Assembly: GCA_021811385.1 (NCBI GenBank)
Contig: JAJZPC010000014.1
Coordinates: forward strand, 1 to 45,944
Source of the DNA: Deltaproteobacteria bacterium
GTDB taxonomy: Bacteria > Desulfobacterota > Desulfobulbia > Desulfobulbales > Desulfurivibrionaceae
Direction of reading: 5' to 3'
DNA length: 45,944 nt
In this document: positions 14,494 through 22,945 of the stretch, in pieces
How the letters are laid out: each line of letters opens with the position of its first letter
Numbering within the stretch: position 1 is the stretch's first letter
Made by a program: the position numbers and the translations under genes
Notes under the pieces: generated by a model
The model's input: only the letters and a program-made list of their open reading frames with translations
Database searches by the model: none
What the model was told of the DNA's origin: nothing

Positions 14494-16878
14494 ATGACCA
14501 CAACGCCCCCCCTCCAGACGGCTTTCGACCCCCACCCCCCCTCCTCCTCCGATATTCTTGAAATGGTCACCAGCCACATCGGGGCAGGGCTTGCCATCAT
14601 CTCCCGCGACTATACAACCCTCTGGACCAACAAGGTCATGGAGGATATCTACGGCAATACCGTGGGCAAGACCTGCTACAGCACGTATCAGCAGCAGGAA
14701 ACCATCTGCCCATGGTGCGGGGTTCGGGAGGTCTTTGAACAGTCCCGGGAACGGGTGGTCAGGGAGGTGGTCAGCCGGGACAAAAACGGGGATCATCTCG
14801 ATTTGGAAATCATCGCCACCCCGATCCGCGATACACAGGGGACGATCATCGCGGCCTTGGAGCTGGTCCTGCCGATAACCGAACGAAAACAGAAGGAAAA
14901 GGCCCTGTCCGAACTGCTCGCCTTCTCGCAAAGCCTGACCAGCACCGTTGACCTGAACAGTCTCTACCGAAAGGTCACCAGCCTGTCCAAGGAGTTGCTG
15001 GATCTTGATTTCTCCACCCTGATGTTGATGAGCGATGACCAGAGCGGACTGGTTATCCGCGACACCCTGGGCTTCCCGGAGCAGACCATCGGCAATTATG
15101 CCCTGCTCAAGGGCCAGGGGCTCTCCACCCATGTGGTGCTGACAAAAAAACCAGCCGTGGTGCTGGATTTTCAGCAGGAAACCCGGTTTGAAATCCCCTC
15201 CCTGGTTGTGGAAAAGAATATCCGTTCCGCGCTCTGCGTGCCCATGATGCTGGGCGAGGAGATCTTCGGGGTGCTGATCGGCCACACCTTGCAACCCCGG
15301 ATCTTCGGCGAAGAGGCGAGCATCTATCAGAGCTTTGCCAACCAGGCGGCGATGGCGATCAAGAACGCCATGCACATGCATTCCCTGCAGGCCTCGGAAA
15401 AAAAGGTCCGGGCCCTGTTTGACAATACCAACGATGCGATTCTGATCTACAGCCTGGAATGCCGTCTCCTCGAGGTGAACCGCGCGACCTGCGAACGGTT
15501 GGGCTACACGCGGGAAGAACTCCTGGCCCTGCCCATAACCCAGCTCGTTGCCCCGCCGTATATCCCTCTGGTCAAGGAGCGCGTCGAGCGGCTGAAAAAT
15601 GAGGGTACGGCCATCTTCGAGTCCGCCCATCGCAAAAAAGATGGCTCCATTCTCCCCATCGAACAGAGCTGCAGCCTCATCGACTATGACACCCGGACGG
15701 CAATCCTCTGCGTCTCCCGGGATATCTCCGAGCGGAAGCGGATTGACGAGGAACGCCTCCGGACCCAGAAGCTGGAATCCCTCGGGGTCTTGGCCGGGGG
15801 CATTGCCCACGATTTCAACAATCTGCTCACCGGCATCCTCGGCAATCTTTCCCTGGCCAAGGCAAATCTGCCGGAAAGCGGAGAGGTGGCGGAGCGATTG
15901 GCCGAGACGGAAAAAGCCACCCTCCGGGCCAAGGATCTGACCCAGCAGCTCCTCACCTTTGCCAAGGGCGGAGCGCCGATCAAAACAGAAGCCTCCCTGG
16001 CCGGACTCATCCAGGATGCGGCCGGTTTTGCCGTACGCGGCACCAAGGCGGTGTGCGAATACGATTTTGGGGAGGATCTCTGGCTGGCCGAGGTGGACAG
16101 GGGCCAGCTGGGCCAGGTTTTGCAGAACCTGGTGATCAACGCGGTCCATGCCATGCCGGAGGGCGGCACCATCCGCCTTGCGGCCCGCAACCTCACCGTC
16201 GACAAGGACGAGCCGCCGCTGACGCAGGGCAAATATGTGCTGATCACCGTCAGGGATCATGGGCTCGGCATCCCGCCGGAGCATCAGGCAAAGATCTTTG
16301 ACCCCTATTTCTCCACCAAGCAGAACGGCAGCGGTTTGGGGCTGGCAGTGGTCTACTCCGTCATCGCCAGCCACGCCGGCCACGTCACCGTGGAATCGGA
16401 ACCGGGCAAGGGCACACTCTTTTCCATCCATCTCCCCTCGACCGGCAAAAGCCCCCTTGCGGAAAAGCCCGCCCGGATAACAGCGTTGCCGACCAAGGGC
16501 CAGGGCAAGGTGCTGGTCATGGACGACGAGGAACTCATCCGCAATGTTTCCACCGCCATGCTCAGGCAGTTGGGCTATGAGGCCCACGCCGCCAATGACG
16601 GTGAAGAGGCGATCACCCGCTATCTGCAAGCCCAAAAGGAAGGATGTCCCTTTGATCTGGTGATCATGGACCTCACCGTGCCCGGCGGCATGGGAGGCAA
16701 GGAGGCCATCACCCACCTCCGCCAGATCGACCCCCGGGTAAAGGCCGTTGTCTCCAGCGGATACGCCAACGACCCGATCATGGCGTCCTTCGGTGAATAC
16801 GGGTTTTGCGGGGTTGCCCCCAAGCCCTTCAGCCTCCAGGAACTTTCCGAATTATTGCAAATGATTTTAACTGGTTAA
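14494..16878 (+). CDS. PAS-GAF-PAS sensor histidine kinase with C-terminal receiver
   Basis: 794 residues, no membrane segments, so probably cytoplasmic. Order: PAS1 about 20-130, containing Cys61 and a CPWC motif (Cys72/Cys75); GAF about 145-290; PAS2 about 303-415; HisKA of the GGIAHDFNNLL type with His439; HATPase (NLVINAVHAMPEGG; DHGLGIP; SGLGLAVVYSVI); receiver about 672-790 with acceptor Asp in VIMDLTVPGGMGG. The Cys triad in PAS1 recurs in deltaproteobacterial kinases and could bind metal or act as a redox switch (inference). GCGAGG lies before the ATG. It is separated from the TonB receptor by 138 nt containing its own candidate promoter, so it need not belong to the upstream module. 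Confidence 0.93.
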   Translation: MTTTPPLQTAFDPHPPSSSDILEMVTSHIGAGLAIISRDYTTLWTNKVMEDIYGNTVGKTCYSTYQQQETICPWCGVREVFEQSRERVVREVVSRDKNGDHLDLEIIATPIRDTQGTIIAALELVLPITERKQKEKALSELLAFSQSLTSTVDLNSLYRKVTSLSKELLDLDFSTLMLMSDDQSGLVIRDTLGFPEQTIGNYALLKGQGLSTHVVLTKKPAVVLDFQQETRFEIPSLVVEKNIRSALCVPMMLGEEIFGVLIGHTLQPRIFGEEASIYQSFANQAAMAIKNAMHMHSLQASEKKVRALFDNTNDAILIYSLECRLLEVNRATCERLGYTREELLALPITQLVAPPYIPLVKERVERLKNEGTAIFESAHRKKDGSILPIEQSCSLIDYDTRTAILCVSRDISERKRIDEERLRTQKLESLGVLAGGIAHDFNNLLTGILGNLSLAKANLPESGEVAERLAETEKATLRAKDLTQQLLTFAKGGAPIKTEASLAGLIQDAAGFAVRGTKAVCEYDFGEDLWLAEVDRGQLGQVLQNLVINAVHAMPEGGTIRLAARNLTVDKDEPPLTQGKYVLITVRDHGLGIPPEHQAKIFDPYFSTKQNGSGLGLAVVYSVIASHAGHVTVESEPGKGTLFSIHLPSTGKSPLAEKPARITALPTKGQGKVLVMDDEELIRNVSTAMLRQLGYEAHAANDGEEAITRYLQAQKEGCPFDLVIMDLTVPGGMGGKEAITHLRQIDPRVKAVVSSGYANDPIMASFGEYGFCGVAPKPFSLQELSELLQMILTG

Positions 16879-17042: not shown

Positions 17043-17124
17043 GCTTGCGGATATCAGCGGTATCGTTTTGAATTTCTTTGATCTTTTTTCAGGCAACACC
17101 GAAGATTCAGCAAGGAGAAAAGCG

Positions 17125-18345
17125 ATGCAGCAAAAAGTTGTACACCTTGAGGAGCAAGAGGAACCTCCGGGGTGTTGCCCCAGCCCCGCCGCCTTTGAGT
17201 TTTCCGACCAAACCCCTTCTCCCGCCTTCCGCCAACGCCATTTCCCCTTTGCCACGGATGATGACTGGCACGACTGGCGCTGGCAGCTTCGCAACCGCAT
17301 CACCAGTCTCAAAAAACTCGGCAAGTTCATAGACCTTTCGGACAGCGAGCGGCAGGCCATGGCCTTCAATGGCGCGACCCTGCCCCTGGCCATTACCCCC
17401 TATTACGCCGGCCTCATCTCCCCTGACGATCCGAAACAGCCGCTGCGGCGCACCATGGTGCCGACGGTCAATGAAATGCTGGTCTCGCCCGGCGAGGAAC
17501 ACGATCCCCTGGGCGAGGACAACCACAGCCCGGTGCCCGGCCTGGTGCATCGCTATCCCGACCGGGTTCTCTTTCTGGTCACCGATTATTGTTCGAGCTA
17601 CTGCCGCTACTGCACCCGCTCCCGGATGGTCGGCCGCCGCAAGGGGCACAGCCTGTCCCGCTGGCGGAAAGCCATCGCCTACATCGCGGCCAATCCGGGG
17701 ATCCGCGACGTGCTGCTTTCCGGCGGCGACCCGCTGACCATGCCCGACGAACAGCTGGACTGGCTGCTCGGCCGGTTGCGCCGGATCCCGCATGTGGAGA
17801 TGATCCGCATCGGCACCAAGGCGCCCATGGTGCTGCCCCAGCGCATCACCCCCGAGCTGGTGGGTATGCTGAAAAAACATCACCCGCTGTGGATGAGCAT
17901 CCACTGCACCCATCCCGACGAGCTGACCCCGGAGGCGACCAGGGCCTGCGCCATGCTCGCCGATGCGGGCATCCCCCTGGGCAGCCAGACCGTGCTCCTT
18001 TCCGGAATCAACGATTCCCTGGACACCATGCGCAGGCTCATGCACGGACTGGTCAAGATCCGGGTCAAGCCCTATTACCTCTACCAGTGCGATCCCATCA
18101 TCGGCTCGGCCCATTTCCGCACCCCGGTTTCCAATGGGTTGGAGATGTACCAAGGACTGCGCGGCCACACCTCGGGCTATGCGGTGCCCAATTATGTGAT
18201 CGACGCGCCGGGCGGCGGCGGCAAGATCCCGCTCATCCCGGAAACCGTGGTCGGTCGCGAGGGCAACGATCTTTTGATTAGAAATTACGAAGGCAAGGTC
18301 TACCGCTACCCCGATGTGATCGGCACGGCAGGCCGGGCAAGCTGA
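17125..18345 (+). CDS. KamA-family radical SAM lysine 2,3-aminomutase
   Basis: 406 residues. Predicted to convert L-lysine to beta-lysine using a 4Fe-4S cluster, SAM and PLP. Visible: the radical SAM triad C156-SSY-C160-RY-C163; the PLP lysine Lys367 in DAPGGGGK; and Asp323 (YQCD) and Asp360 (IDAPGGGG), 37 residues apart, corresponding to Asp293 and Asp330 that bind the substrate side-chain amine in clostridial KamA. Glutamate 2,3-aminomutases replace these two, so lysine is the likely substrate. The C-terminal Cys cluster that binds structural zinc in the clostridial enzyme is absent; the protein ends soon after VYRYPDVIG. Start ATG 17125 has AAGGAG upstream. It leads a run with two ATP-grasp ligases and acetyl-transfer genes; a REPIN-like repeat separates it from them. 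Confidence 0.9.
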   Translation: MQQKVVHLEEQEEPPGCCPSPAAFEFSDQTPSPAFRQRHFPFATDDDWHDWRWQLRNRITSLKKLGKFIDLSDSERQAMAFNGATLPLAITPYYAGLISPDDPKQPLRRTMVPTVNEMLVSPGEEHDPLGEDNHSPVPGLVHRYPDRVLFLVTDYCSSYCRYCTRSRMVGRRKGHSLSRWRKAIAYIAANPGIRDVLLSGGDPLTMPDEQLDWLLGRLRRIPHVEMIRIGTKAPMVLPQRITPELVGMLKKHHPLWMSIHCTHPDELTPEATRACAMLADAGIPLGSQTVLLSGINDSLDTMRRLMHGLVKIRVKPYYLYQCDPIIGSAHFRTPVSNGLEMYQGLRGHTSGYAVPNYVIDAPGGGGKIPLIPETVVGREGNDLLIRNYEGKVYRYPDVIGTAGRAS

Positions 18346-18365
18346 TACGGTTATGCCCGGATCGA

Positions 18366-18476
18366 ACACCCCCTCCCTCGACGGGAGGGGGCCAGGGGGT
18401 GGGTGAAGCCCCAATCTGCCGGGCTCATAGCTGATTCCCCCTCTCCCTAACCCTCCCCCCGAGGGGGGAGGGAACT
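18366..18476. repeat. REPIN-like palindromic doublet (copy B)
   Basis: Inverted REP-like halves (18366-18408 and 18434-18476) share the hairpin-plus-G-tail architecture of copies A and C. The left-half core CCCTCCCTCGACGGGAGGG is identical in A, B and C. It lies in the 175-nt gap between the kamA-like gene and the first ATP-grasp gene, probably inside the transcript. Confidence 0.85.
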
Positions 18477-18520
18477 TGCTCGCCTTTTGCTAACTGCCCT
18501 GTAACCAAGGAAAAAACCAT

Positions 18521-19504
18521 ATGCTGATTGGAATGACCTACGACCTGCGGAGCGACTATCTGGCCGCGGGGTACGGAGAAGAGGAAACCGCCGAGTTCGA
18601 CCGGGAATCCACCATCGCGGCCATTGACCACGCCCTGCGGAACATGGGCCACGAAACCGTGCCCATCGGCAATTTCATGGGCCTCATGCCCCGGATTCTG
18701 GCTGGCGAGCGGTGGGATCTGGTATTCAATATCTGCGAGGGGCTATACGGCTTTGGCCGGGAAGCCCTGGTGCCCGCCCTGCTGGAGGCGCACCGGATTC
18801 CCTATGTCTTTTCCGACCCGTTGGTTCTGGGCTTGACGCTGCACAAGGGGATGAGCAAACACGTGGTCCGGGATCTCGGCATCCCCACCCCCGCCTTTAA
18901 GGTGGTGAAAAGCTCGGCGGATGTGGCTGGCGTGATTCTGCCCTATCCGGTCTTTGCCAAGCCCGTGGCCGAAGGGACCGGCAAGGGCGTGACCCCGGCC
19001 TCCAAGATCAGCACTGCCGAAGAGCTGCACGTGGTCTGCGCCGAGCTGTTGCAGACCTATAACCAGCCGGTGCTGGTGGAGGTCTTCCTGCCGGGCAGGG
19101 AGTTCACCGTGGGTATCGTGGGCAACGGCGCTTCCGCCCGATCCATCGGGGTGATGGAGGTGGTTCTGCTGCCCGATTCCGAGCCGGAGGTCTATTCGTA
19201 CCACAACAAGGAATTCTGCGAAGAGCTGGTGGAATACCGCAAGGTGGACGACCCGGAGGCCCGGCAGGCGGAGGCAACCGCCCTGGCCGCCTGGCGCGGG
19301 CTGGACTGCCGGGACGGCGGGAGGGTGGATCTGCGCTCCGACGCCAACGGCATCCCCAATTTCATCGAGGTCAACCCCCTGGCCGGACTGCATCCCGAAC
19401 ATTCCGACCTCTGCATCATCGCCACCAAGTACGGGATCACCTATCAGGAGCTGCTCAGCGAGATCGTCGCCGCCGCCATTGCCCGGCTCGGGCTTGAACC
19501 ATGA
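18521..19504 (+). CDS. ATP-grasp ligase, D-alanine-D-alanine ligase-like (first of pair)
   Basis: 327 residues. Ddl-like layout: N-terminal domain (WDLVFNICEGLYGFGREALVP; LLEAHRIPYVFSDPLVLGL), central ATP-binding domain (LHKGMSKHVVRDLGIPTPAF; YPVFAKPVAEGTGKGV; PVLVEVFLPGREFTVGIVG) and C-terminal metal-binding part (GGRVDLRSDANG, then FIEVNPLAGLHPEHSDL). It should activate a carboxylate with ATP and join it to an amine. The substrates are probably not two D-Ala, because this is an extra pair beside an aminomutase. AAGGAAAA lies before the ATG. Its stop overlaps the start of the second ligase by 4 nt (ATGA), implying coupled translation and perhaps a complex. Confidence 0.88.
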   Translation: MLIGMTYDLRSDYLAAGYGEEETAEFDRESTIAAIDHALRNMGHETVPIGNFMGLMPRILAGERWDLVFNICEGLYGFGREALVPALLEAHRIPYVFSDPLVLGLTLHKGMSKHVVRDLGIPTPAFKVVKSSADVAGVILPYPVFAKPVAEGTGKGVTPASKISTAEELHVVCAELLQTYNQPVLVEVFLPGREFTVGIVGNGASARSIGVMEVVLLPDSEPEVYSYHNKEFCEELVEYRKVDDPEARQAEATALAAWRGLDCRDGGRVDLRSDANGIPNFIEVNPLAGLHPEHSDLCIIATKYGITYQELLSEIVAAAIARLGLEP

Positions 19505-20502
19505 AGCACCCCAAGGTCGGGATCATCCACAACGAGCCGATCCCCCAAGGTGAGCCGAACTGGGAATCCTCCGCCGATGTCCTGGCCCAGGTGGAGGCCA
19601 TCGAGACCGCGCTCACCGAACTGGGCCAGCCCCATGCACGCATCCCCTTTACCCGCGATCTGTCCCGCTTTGTCAGCCAGGTGCAGGCGGCAGGGATCAC
19701 AAAAGCCTTCAACCTCTGCGAGTCGGTGGACGAAGACCCGCTCCTCATCGGCCACCCGGCCGCGGTCCTCGAACTGCTCTCCATCCCCTTCACCGGCTCC
19801 TCGGCCATGGCGCTGCTGCTCTCCACGGACAAGCTCACGGTAAAAAGATTACTCACCGCCTCCGGTCTGCGCACCCCTGCTTTTTTCCTCTACGAGGGCA
19901 GCGAGGTGCTGCGGCCCGCGGGGCTCAATTTCCCGGTGATCCTCAAGCCCCGCTTCCAGGACGCCTCCATCGGCATCGAGCAGGAATCGGTGGTGGAAAA
20001 CAGCAGTGACCTGCTGCCCCGGCTGGAAGAGCTCTACGGGCGGTACGGCGCCATTCTGGTGGAGGAGTATGTCGCGGGCAGGGAGTTCAATGTTTCGCTC
20101 TTCGGCTATCCCCAGCCCCGGGTCATGCCCCTGGCGGAGATCGATTTCTCCGGCTTTCCCGCCGACCTGCACCGGATCGTGAGCTACAAGGCCAAATGGG
20201 ACGAGGATTCCTTCGAATATCACAACACCCAGCGGATTTTTCCGGACAACCTGCCCGAAGTCTTGCAACAGACCATGCGACGCATGGCCCAGGAGTGTTT
20301 TGGACTCTTCGGCTTGCGCGATTATGCCAGGGTGGACCTGCGCCTTGATCAGCAGGGTCGCCTTGCCATTCTGGAAATCAACGCCAATCCCTGCCTGAGC
20401 CCGGATGCCGGGTTTCCCGCCGCCGTGGCCAAAAGCGCGATGGGCTACACGGAGATGATCGGGGAATTTGTCCGGCTGGTCTCCTCAAGGGCCACCCTGT
20501 GA
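19501..20502 (+). CDS. ATP-grasp ligase, D-alanine-D-alanine ligase-like (second of pair)
   Basis: 333 residues. Ddl-like segments: AFNLCESVDEDPLLIGHPAAV, SIPFTGSSAMALLLSTDKL, GLRTPAFFLYEG, FPVILKPRFQDASIGIEQES, AILVEEYVAGREFNVSLFG, then YARVDLRLDQQGR and ILEINANPCLSPDAGF, where Asp, Glu and Asn bind metal. The N-terminal glycine-rich Ddl signature (GGxSxE) is missing and starts VGIIHNEPIPQGEPNW instead, so the first-substrate pocket differs. It overlaps the previous gene by 4 nt and the next acetyltransferase by 4 nt (GTGA). The tight packing argues for one pathway with the flanking genes. Confidence 0.88.
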   Translation: MKHPKVGIIHNEPIPQGEPNWESSADVLAQVEAIETALTELGQPHARIPFTRDLSRFVSQVQAAGITKAFNLCESVDEDPLLIGHPAAVLELLSIPFTGSSAMALLLSTDKLTVKRLLTASGLRTPAFFLYEGSEVLRPAGLNFPVILKPRFQDASIGIEQESVVENSSDLLPRLEELYGRYGAILVEEYVAGREFNVSLFGYPQPRVMPLAEIDFSGFPADLHRIVSYKAKWDEDSFEYHNTQRIFPDNLPEVLQQTMRRMAQECFGLFGLRDYARVDLRLDQQGRLAILEINANPCLSPDAGFPAAVAKSAMGYTEMIGEFVRLVSSRATL

Positions 20503-20972
20503 TCACCATCCGTCCCATTGCCGCGGAAGACCGCGCCCAGCTTCTGCGCCTGGTGGAACGGCAGGATAATTTCAATAGCCAGGAGGTGGCGGTGGCCATC
20601 GAGGTCATCGACGACACCCTGAACCCGGCCAAGAACGATTATTCCATCCTCGTGGCGGTAAGCCAGGGGCAGGGGGTGGCGGGTTTTATCTGCTACGGGG
20701 AAATCCCCATGACCGACCGCCGCTTCGACCTGTACTGGATCGCGGTGGACCCGGACCTGGGCAGGCAGGGGGTGGGGCGGCGGCTGCTTGCCCGGATGGA
20801 GGCGGAGCTGGGCAGTCAGGGTCCGGCCAAGGTTTACGTGGACACCTCCTCCACGCCTGGCTATGATCGGGCTCGCAGCTTTTACGAAAAAAACGGCTAC
20901 CGAGTGGCCTGCGTGCTCCAGGACTTTTACCGGGACGGCGACGACAAGGTCATCTACCTCAAGGAGTTGTGA
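20499..20972 (+). CDS. GNAT-family N-acetyltransferase
   Basis: 157 residues, a complete single GNAT domain: MITIRPIAAEDRAQLLRLVE at the start, the acetyl-CoA-binding motif A (LYWIAVDPDLGRQGVGRRLL, with the R/Q-x-x-G-x-G/A loop as GRQGVG) and a late YDRARSFYEKNGY. It starts with GTG overlapping the stop of the second ATP-grasp gene. In archaeal and some bacterial ablAB operons an acetyltransferase follows lysine 2,3-aminomutase and makes N-epsilon-acetyl-beta-lysine. A similar step here is possible but not shown by sequence. Confidence 0.88.
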   Translation: MITIRPIAAEDRAQLLRLVERQDNFNSQEVAVAIEVIDDTLNPAKNDYSILVAVSQGQGVAGFICYGEIPMTDRRFDLYWIAVDPDLGRQGVGRRLLARMEAELGSQGPAKVYVDTSSTPGYDRARSFYEKNGYRVACVLQDFYRDGDDKVIYLKEL

Positions 20973-21083
20973 CCTCGTTTGTTTAAAACGCAGACTTCGA
21001 CGAAAGCCGCGATTACAGCGGGAAGCAAAAGCGACCGGCGACAATTCCTCCTTCATAACTTTGATGGACTCGTAACAACAGCC

Positions 21084-21156
21084 CTTCGACAGGCTCAGCA
21101 CGAACGGACGTTGTCTTAAACGCATTGATATTCCGTTCGTGCTGAGCCTGTCGAAG
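21084..21156. repeat. Perfect 24-bp inverted repeat in the acetyltransferase-deacetylase gap
   Basis: Arms 21084-21107 and 21133-21156 are exact inverted repeats (core TTCGACAGGCTCAGCACG) with a 25-nt loop. As RNA this is a very stable hairpin. The same core is a widespread intergenic repeat in many unrelated bacterial genomes, from general familiarity. It lies inside the presumed operon and could stabilise the upstream message. Confidence 0.85.
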
Positions 21157-21163
21157 CACCTGT

Positions 21164-21189
21164 TTGAAGCACATTCGGAGTTATTACGA
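21164..21189. repeat. 26-bp repeat shared with 43769-43794
   Basis: The 26-nt stretch beginning TTGAAGCACATTC and ending GTTATTACGA matches the copy at 43769-43794 at 25 of 26 positions. Here it directly precedes the GNAT-deacetylase start codon; the other copy overlaps the 3' end of the DUF3343 gene. Confidence 0.8.
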
Positions 21190-21196
21190 GGCAATC

Positions 21197-22945
21197 ATGT
21201 TCAGAATCCGCCGGATCTACGACGACACCCTGGCCATCGACCGCGAAACCATCGATCAGGTGCGGCAGATCCTGCGCAGCCAGTTCTCGGCCATATCGGA
21301 AAGCGAGATCAACAGTCTGGCCCAGAAGCTTTCCAACCCCCTGAAGTACCGCTTCCGCACCATCCTCTTCGTTGCCGACGACATGAAGCCCAGGGTCAAG
21401 GGGTTTGCCCTGCTCAACCATGCCCCGGACCTTTCCTTCTGCTTTCTCGACTTCATCTCGGTGGACCCGAAGGCTGCGGCCGGCGGGGTCGGCGGCGCCC
21501 TGTACGCACGGGTGCGGGAGGAGGCCCGGTCCCTGGGCAGTGACGGAATTTTCATGGAGTGCCTGCCCGATGAACCGAAGATCTGCCGGGAACCGGCCAC
21601 GGTGAAGCAGAGCCGGGCCCGGCTCAGGTTCTACGAGCGCTACGGCGCCTTGCCCATCATCAATACGGCCTACGAAACGGTACTCAAGCCGGAGTACGAT
21701 TGCCCGCCCTATCTGGTTTACGACGATCTCGGCAGCACCACCCCCCTTGCCAGGGACAGGGCACGGGAGGTAGTGCGCGCCATCCTCATCCGCAAGTACG
21801 GCAAGGATTGCCCCAAGGGCTATATCGACATGGTGGTGGAGTCCTTCCGCGACGACCCGGTGGAGCGCCGTGCCCCCCGCTATATCAAGACGGAACCGAT
21901 CAAGGTGCATCCGGTCAAGTCGCTGGAAAAATTGATCGCCCTTGTCGTCAACGAAAAGCACGATATCCACCATATCCGGGAGCGGGGCTACGTGGAGGCG
22001 CCGGTGCGCATTGCCTCCATCCTCAAGGGGATCGAGCCCACCGGCCTGTTCGAGCGCATCCCGTCCCGCCATTTTTCCGAACGGCACATCAAGAAGGTGC
22101 ATGACCCGAAATTTGTCGAATACCTCAATCAGGTCTGCACCACCCTTGAGCCCGGGAAATCGGTCTACCCCTATGTTTTTCCCATCCGCAACGCGGCCAG
22201 GCCGCCCAAGGATCTGCCGGTGCGGGCAGGCTACTACTGCATCGACACCTTCACCCCCTTGAACCACAACGCCTACAAGGCGGCCAAGGGCGCGGTGGAC
22301 TGCGGCCTGACTGCGGCTCAGCTCCTTGAGAAGGGCTACCGCCTGGCCTATGCCCTGGTCCGGCCCCCTGGGCACCATGCGGAACGGCGGTTATTCGGCG
22401 GCTTCTGCTATTTCAATTCGGCCGCCATTGCCGCCAATTATCTCAGCCGCGAGGGCAGGGTGGCGGTGCTTGATATCGATTACCACCACGGCAACGGCAC
22501 CCAGGATATCTTCTATCAACGCAACGATGTGTTGACCCTCTCGATCCACGGGCATCCCAGCTTTGCCTATCCTTATTTCTCCGGCTTCAGCGACGAGGTG
22601 GGGGAGGCGGCGGGGAGGGGGTTTAATCGCAATTACCCCCTGCCGGAAACGCTGGACGGCGCGGGCTACCGCCCGGTGCTGGCCAAGGCGCTCAAGCGTA
22701 TCCGCGCTTTTAAGCCGCATTTTCTGGTGGTGGCGCTGGGGTTTGATCCGGCCGAAAAAGATCCGACCGGCACCTGGTCGCTCACTGCGGCGGATTTCGA
22801 GGAAAACGGCCGGATGCTCGGCAGCCTGCGGTTGCCCACCCTGATCGTGCAGGAGGGGGGCTACCGGACCCGTTCGCTGGGCACCAATGCCCGCCATTTT
22901 TTCCTGGGTCTCTGGATAGGCATGCACGGAAATAATCACCCCTGA
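21197..22945 (+). CDS. GNAT acetyltransferase fused to a class II HDAC / acetylpolyamine amidohydrolase-type deacetylase
   Basis: 582 residues. The N-terminal part (about 1-165) is GNAT-like (LDFISVDPKAAAGGVGGALY; RLRFYERYGALPI). A linker (about 165-270) leads to a zinc deacetylase domain with a complete active site: PPGHHA (His393/His394), zinc ligands Asp428 and His430 in LDIDYHHGNGTQ, Asp517 in ALGFDPAEKDPTG, and catalytic Tyr556 in QEGGY. The layout resembles acetylpolyamine amidohydrolases more than eukaryotic HDACs, so the substrate is probably a small acetylated amine or lysine derivative. One protein could then add and remove an acetyl group. The ATG at 21197 has ACGAGG before it. It follows the GNAT gene by 224 nt filled with repeats and may have its own promoter. 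Confidence 0.9.
   Translation: MFRIRRIYDDTLAIDRETIDQVRQILRSQFSAISESEINSLAQKLSNPLKYRFRTILFVADDMKPRVKGFALLNHAPDLSFCFLDFISVDPKAAAGGVGGALYARVREEARSLGSDGIFMECLPDEPKICREPATVKQSRARLRFYERYGALPIINTAYETVLKPEYDCPPYLVYDDLGSTTPLARDRAREVVRAILIRKYGKDCPKGYIDMVVESFRDDPVERRAPRYIKTEPIKVHPVKSLEKLIALVVNEKHDIHHIRERGYVEAPVRIASILKGIEPTGLFERIPSRHFSERHIKKVHDPKFVEYLNQVCTTLEPGKSVYPYVFPIRNAARPPKDLPVRAGYYCIDTFTPLNHNAYKAAKGAVDCGLTAAQLLEKGYRLAYALVRPPGHHAERRLFGGFCYFNSAAIAANYLSREGRVAVLDIDYHHGNGTQDIFYQRNDVLTLSIHGHPSFAYPYFSGFSDEVGEAAGRGFNRNYPLPETLDGAGYRPVLAKALKRIRAFKPHFLVVALGFDPAEKDPTGTWSLTAADFEENGRMLGSLRLPTLIVQEGGYRTRSLGTNARHFFLGLWIGMHGNNHP

Follow-up and report, generated by a model that had tools for sequence, protein, structure and literature searches.

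We found that a 45,944-nucleotide stretch of DNA from a Deltaproteobacteria bacterium of the Desulfurivibrionaceae (contig JAJZPC010000014.1 of assembly GCA_021811385.1; hereafter the window) carries a five-gene cluster encoding a lysine 2,3-aminomutase-like enzyme (KamA), two ATP-grasp ligases, a stand-alone GNAT acetyltransferase and a GNAT-deacetylase fusion. The recurrence of this gene set in the genus, in the order and in the phyla named by record titles is more than chance. We give about even odds to the reading that the cluster is a small biosynthetic pathway for an amide of beta-lysine, probably with a polyamine, that is acetylated and optionally deacetylated. Taken separately, a beta-lysine amide is the probable product, while the presence of a polyamine in it is a more tentative proposal, somewhat short of an even chance; the substrates, the order of steps and the role of the pathway are what we infer from the evidence below. 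The enzymes are of known kinds, and their combination is undescribed in the literature searched, which leaves most subscription papers and preprints outside it. The first-pass annotation of this DNA, made from the sequence alone, had likewise known of no published pathway with these genes, and we found none.

The window is contig C16 of a 2.6 Mb genome that is 75% complete in 108 contigs. All five genes lie on its plus strand:

17125-18345, plus strand: kamA, a KamA-family radical SAM/pyridoxal phosphate (PLP) aminomutase, probably a lysine 2,3-aminomutase; open reading frame (ORF) open from a TTG at 17068
18521-19504, plus strand: ligase 1 (grasp1), an amide ligase of the D-alanine-D-alanine ligase (Ddl) fold in the ATP-grasp family, with an acidic conserved N-terminal loop
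19501-20502, plus strand: ligase 2 (grasp2), a second Ddl-fold ATP-grasp amide ligase
20499-20972, plus strand: gnat, a stand-alone GNAT acetyltransferase (PF13508/PF00583)
21197-22945, plus strand: GNAT-deacetylase fusion, an N-terminal GNAT and a zinc deacetylase domain; ORF open from a TTG at 21164

This layout, including the 4-nt overlaps at the ligase 1/ligase 2 and ligase 2/GNAT junctions, had been described in the first-pass annotation and is confirmed by ORF and Pfam calls (Radical_SAM and LAM_C in KamA, Dala_Dala_lig_C in each ligase, GNAT, and Hist_deacetyl with a weak GNAT match in the fusion). The ATG at 17125, preceded by AAGGAG, is a better start for kamA than the opening of the ORF at 17068, as is the ATG at 21197 rather than position 21164 for the fusion gene. 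The GNAT and fusion genes do not overlap in the window; the gap between them, 224 nt here, ranges among near relatives from a few bases to about 230.

A ligase-1 profile was scanned against one genome per species (84,980 species), giving at least 588 matching stretches and at least 511 relatives, of which the best 80 loci were kept. Since these loci were picked by ligase 1 only, their neighbours provide an independent test. KamA adjoins ligase 1 in 77 of them (75 of the 78 with room for it); ligase 2 is found in 74 (67/71 with room) and, fused to ligase 1, in L085, making 75; the GNAT is present in 65 (55/57 with room) and the GNAT-deacetylase in 24 (21/57), with the GNAT before the fusion in 14 loci and after it in 10. 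The conservation of neighbours on which the first-pass annotation had made its reading depend thus holds, in loci whose titles name 12 phyla; this is an upper reading, because many loci are 'Deltaproteobacteria' metagenome-assembled genomes (MAGs) that a name look-up files under Myxococcota, and because bins can be contaminated. Pairwise divergence is correlated for every one of the ten gene pairs (r 0.70-0.90, a level reached by 0 of 1000 shuffles), and the genes therefore travel together. Single-chain fusions also tie the parts of the cluster to one another: ligase 1 and ligase 2 form one ORF in L085, as do two ligases in L175 and L176 (with no kamA or GNAT match in those 15 kb), ligase 2 is joined to the GNAT in L116, L119, L206 and L224, and L184 encodes GNAT-deacetylase-GNAT in a single ORF.

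Closer to the window, a search of 58 genomes, the window's own included, gave a fusion-level match in 12 of the 17 genomes of the genus and in 10 of the 41 others. In the 20 neighbourhoods fetched first, the order kamA-ligase 1-ligase 2-GNAT-fusion is kept where room allows, except that the GNAT follows the fusion in L054 and L055, that L050 has a stop inside kamA and ligase 2 reduced to a piece, and that two loci taken up below have the fusion alone. In the window's phylum, 134 of 395 genomes, about a third of those sampled, carry ligase 1 (E <= 1e-60), 266 carry KamA, and 37 carry the fusion, after one deacetylase-only match of 38 was discarded. KamA occurs in 132 of the 134 ligase-1 genomes and in 134 of the 261 others (Fisher 1.7e-26, families with a distant KamA included), and ligase 1 in 34 of the 37 fusion genomes (Fisher 1.4e-14), 36 of which have KamA; these p-values ignore shared ancestry and hence are inflated. 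Of the three fusion genomes with no ligase-1 match, G294 has a diverged cluster, G127 has a ligase 2-GNAT fusion and a ligase-1 ORF of only 75 aa, and in G353 (L226, G353:C244) the fusion is flanked by two different kamA genes. Seen from the other side, the fusion is present in 34 of the 134 ligase-1 genomes, not always on the ligase-1 contig (for example in G153). The reversible acetylation that the first-pass annotation had proposed is, accordingly, possible but not core to the system.

KamA scores 348 bits against the subfamily model TIGR00238, above its cut-off of 199.2, and 481.2 bits against the AblA equivalog TIGR03820, below its cut-off of 525.4; it aligns with the L-lysine 2,3-aminomutase structure 2a5h at 473 bits over residues 58-418. 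Numbered from 17068, it has the CxxxCxxC triad C175/C179/C182, the PLP lysine K386, and D342 and D379, which we take to be the functional residues of KamA, the aspartates being equivalent to Asp293 and Asp330. The triad, the lysine and both aspartates, D323 and D360 when counted from 17125, are present exactly as the first-pass annotation had given them, and at least 97% of the 76 KamA homologues compared retain all these residues, the cysteines included. Lysine would be the likeliest substrate, because the residues for the cluster, for PLP and for binding lysine (both Asp) are kept. KamA is below the cut-off of the EpmB model; no search was made for partner genes of beta-lysylation of elongation factor P or of lysine fermentation. 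A second, shorter KamA of the window genome (L058, G000:C58, 1857-2873) is under all equivalog cut-offs and has neighbours that we take to be universal-stress-protein-like and malic-enzyme-like genes.

The two ligases match PF07478 at 86 and 87 bits and share the fold of Ddl and of Ddl-like L-amino acid ligases over their full length. Their AlphaFold models have mean confidences (pLDDT) of 90.9 for ligase 1 and 94.2 for ligase 2; the top PDB matches of ligase 1 are D-Ala-D-Ala ligases (TM ~0.75-0.8; Foldseek best E 4.7e-24), and ligase 2 likewise has the Ddl fold (best E 1.3e-26). Both, however, are far below the curated Ddl/Van cut-offs shown, with best scores of 132.7 (ligase 1) and 124.2 (ligase 2) against a Ddl cut-off of 243, and we rejected a true Ddl or vancomycin-type ligase for either. 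They also differ from Ddl in what are presumably the substrate loops, and in being paired in 75 of the 80 loci. D270/E283/N285 and D279/E292/N294, conserved in the two ligases, are presumably the ATP-grasp Mg ligands. In the acidic N-terminal stretch of ligase 1, E22, A24, E25, F26 and D27 are invariant in 34 sequences, making it an attractive candidate site for a cationic substrate.

The stand-alone GNAT has as its closest solved structure 2r7h, a 'Putative D-alanine N-acetyltransferase of GNAT family' (96 bits). In the fusion, the deacetylase domain is strong (PF00850, 256 bits) and the GNAT domain weak (PF00583, 21.0 bits against a cut-off of 20.7). The closest solved kin of the deacetylase domain are acetylpolyamine amidohydrolases (APAH; 6phr, 9gkz and 3q9b, 225-245 bits over about 305 residues, 6phr at 245), with which it has the catalytic motifs in common: the HH, DxH and catalytic-Tyr motifs are intact, with H404, H405, D439, H441, D528 and Y567 conserved in 22 sequences. 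Unlike APAH, it sits behind a GNAT domain, keeps the company of KamA and ligase 1 in the proportions given above, and departs at a pair of glutamates discussed below.

A link to polyamines, which the first-pass annotation did not contain, emerged from the neighbours. At least 15 genomes of families f30, f33, f57 and f72 have a gene for pyruvoyl arginine decarboxylase (PvlArgDC) immediately before the ligases and no more than 1 kb from ligase 1. In the 14 of these neighbourhoods that were fetched (G251 was left out), an agmatinase gene lies upstream in 11, and L181, L193 and L194 have the decarboxylase only. All 15 genomes have KamA elsewhere; in L211 (f72), L215 (f33) and L221 (f30) the remote kamA stands directly behind a small gene that we take to be MerR-like. 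In L088, a kamA-ligase 1-ligase 2-GNAT-deacetylase cluster ends in a single ORF for GNAT-agmatinase, whose agmatinase part scores 221 bits against TIGR01230 (cut-off 174). Finally, in L235 (genome G028) and L080, genes for agmatinase, SpeA, a carboxynorspermidine synthase-like protein and NspC lie beside the GNAT-deacetylase gene; in G028 the synthase-like protein is below its cut-off and the other three are above theirs. L083 has two of these spermidine-operon genes, and L069 and L137 have one each. In total, a polyamine gene is found in 5 of the 80 loci, where roughly 0.4 of 80 would be expected for an operon occurring once in 3 Mb, an estimate rather than a run control. The repeated physical and fusion link to putrescine and spermidine synthesis thus suggests a polyamine as substrate or partner.

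Besides the inflated p-values, several observations weigh against our proposal. L100, L125 and L138 have no KamA within 7 kb, and in two ligase-1 genomes, G334 and G391, no KamA reaches the cut-off. L081, L100, L138 and L139 lack ligase 2 although there is room for it, and it was not seen in L188 or L204; no common replacement gene was seen in L081, L100 and L138. In L049 and L053 the fusion stands alone, with the other cluster genes missing. As for the polyamine, the GNAT-agmatinase fusion is a single case, in a MAG, and just 5 of the 80 loci (L069, L080, L083, L088 and L137) have polyamine genes close by. Among the matches listed, PvlArgDC is present in 180 of the 395 phylum genomes and is only mildly associated with ligase 1 (85/134 versus 95/261). 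A genome search did not find it in the window genome or in two others of the genus, G007 and G010; the window genome has an arginine/ornithine-decarboxylase-family protein of SpeA size, encoded away from the cluster. It is possible that the four PvlArgDC families inherited a single ancestral operon. Their ligase 1, moreover, has diverged (233-257 bits against the ligase-1 profile) and hence may act on a different substrate. In the deacetylase domain, the columns of Glu106 and Glu117, presumably the polyamine-binding residues of M. ramosa APAH, hold Pro and Phe, with an invariant Asp361 two residues before.

In the pathway that we propose, KamA would first convert L-lysine to beta-lysine, as its residues and near-strict co-occurrence with ligase 1 suggest. 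The two ligases, non-identical and nearly always paired, would then join beta-lysine to a partner, either through two amide bonds or through one bond with two alternative partners; the partner would most likely be a polyamine derived from agmatine or putrescine. The stand-alone GNAT may acetylate a free amine on the product or an intermediate, and the optional GNAT-deacetylase may remove or reset the acetyl group, tuning the charge of the polycation or recycling the metabolite. More speculatively, beta-lysine-polyamine amides made by paired Ddl-fold ligases could be a widespread new class of metabolite, a polycation in anaerobes of many phyla; it is similarly doubtful, though conceivable, that dedicated domains for acetyl transfer and deacetylation set the charge of such a polycation, and that it is distinct from both spermidine and N-epsilon-acetyl-beta-lysine. 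If the product is a beta-lysine-polyamine amide, it would join two separate fields, those of compatible solutes and of polyamines, explain what hundreds of Ddl-like and deacetylase-like genes do, and provide a bacterial example of a single polypeptide that holds both an acetyltransferase and a deacetylase domain for a small cation.

The first-pass annotation had offered a peptide-like beta-lysine metabolite or an osmolyte. A dedicated, conserved pathway stands; the osmolyte part has lost ground. As an osmolyte, the product would be an N-acetylated beta-lysine di- or tripeptide acting as a compatible solute: the ligases would couple beta-lysine to ordinary amino acids, acetylation by the GNAT would neutralise charge, and the deacetylase would recycle the solute once salinity falls. 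Acetylated dipeptide osmolytes do exist, NAGGN being an example, and a gene for a sensor kinase stands ahead of the cluster in the window, L037, L038 and L056. Parts of PMC3543383 and PMC9337991 also lend this explanation support. However, Lac Pavin, groundwater, fen, Alinen, an upflow anaerobic sludge blanket or a sludge digester is the source indicated by 17 of the 80 locus titles (habitat as read from names, others being marine), seven sources searched at Rfam gathering scores yielded no riboswitch, and 4 of 16 genomes checked, one of them in the genus, have a separate ablAB operon, in which AblB is encoded next to a second KamA, far away from the cluster. The freshwater-type bearers and the separate operons weaken the explanation, which also leaves the agmatinase and spermidine-operon links and the GNAT-agmatinase fusion unexplained; we regard it as unlikely.

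We give similarly little credence to the acetyl group as a protecting group, with the GNAT blocking one amine of beta-lysine, the ligases coupling the other and the deacetylase unmasking an antibiotic-like or signal pseudo-peptide. Blocking of lysine N6 ahead of peptide ligation has been argued for other peptide-ligase systems, as far as part of PMC2922099 goes. The joining of GNAT and deacetylase in a single protein, which in one case (L184) includes both GNATs, is consistent with such a scheme. So is a small gene between ligase 2 and the GNAT in L098, L124 and L136, which we take to be DMT-transporter-like and which could encode an exporter (115 aa). However, 100 of the 134 ligase-1 genomes lack the fusion, so that unmasking would be optional, which weakens the scheme, and no more than 10 of the 80 loci share a recurrent transporter-like neighbour. 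Polyamine metabolism proper, with KamA making a diamine precursor from lysine or a related compound and the ligases and acetyl/deacetyl steps storing or detoxifying polyamines in the manner of gamma-glutamyl or glutathionyl conjugates, would account for the PvlArgDC-agmatinase operons with ligases, the spermidine-operon neighbours and the GNAT-agmatinase fusion, but is quite improbable, given that no polyamine gene was found in 75 of the 80 loci, yet KamA adjoins ligase 1 in 77.

Among known systems, ablAB (lysine 2,3-aminomutase and beta-lysine N-epsilon-acetyltransferase, which make the osmolyte N-epsilon-acetyl-beta-lysine) resembles the cluster in having a KamA with the Asp pair followed by an acetyltransferase. 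The cluster, in contrast, has two ATP-grasp ligases in between and a KamA below the AblA cut-off; neither of its GNATs matches AblB (TIGR03827) at E <= 0.01, and with the separate ablAB operons found in 4 of the 16 genomes we rejected the identity of the two systems. The NAGGN pathway (N-acetylglutaminylglutamine synthetase) applies a GNAT and ATP-grasp logic to an acetylated peptide amide, a combination that resembles the cluster; to our knowledge it has no KamA or deacetylase, and the Ngg model TIGR03103 gives 15.5 bits to the cluster GNAT against a cut-off of 569. On the conjugative plasmid pTHIMO01 of Thioflavicoccus mobilis (L034, 2611-8092), the kamA gene adjoins an ATP-grasp gene of the Ddl-like type with 30% identity to ligase 1, and genes for SbnA, an ornithine cyclodeaminase-like protein and a diaminobutyrate aminotransferase accompany the two. 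That cluster differs in its one ligase and its diaminopropionate-type genes, the annotation of the 13 kb seen shows neither a GNAT nor a deacetylase, and the cluster possibly makes a separate KamA-ligase natural product. Ddl-like ATP-grasp genes that share about 28-31% identity with ligase 1 are also found on rhizobial plasmids, including pNGR234a (L035); the NGR234 copy is near insertion sequence elements and a CapA-family gene.

Two further features of the window lie next to or within the cluster:

14494-16878, plus strand: GAF/PAS hybrid histidine kinase (Pfam), directly upstream of kamA; a possible regulator
21084-21156, no strand assigned: palindromic repeat pair in the gap between gnat and the GNAT-deacetylase gene, outside the pathway

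Relatives of the histidine kinase precede kamA near full length in L037, L038 and L056, and as pieces only in L040 and L043. A family that we take to be response-regulator-like recurs near the cluster in 16 loci. A sigma-54 promoter before kamA was rejected: 75 loci were about the same as shuffled sequence, with two loci at score 7 against 0.7 expected. Other recurrent neighbours, presumably mutM-like (17 loci), DUF47-like (13), PiT-like (10) and DMT-like (7), were taken as lineage context, because they are mostly in loci with Syntrophales-type titles; the DMT-like genes inside the clusters of L098, L124 and L136 are excepted. The palindromic repeat is an inverted pair of an 18-bp unit with 48 matches in the genome (<=2 mismatches), against 0 for a reversed control; the copies are often paired about 55 bp apart, resembling a repetitive extragenic palindromic element, and the same repeat is found in the gap between the GNAT and GNAT-deacetylase genes of L036 and L039.

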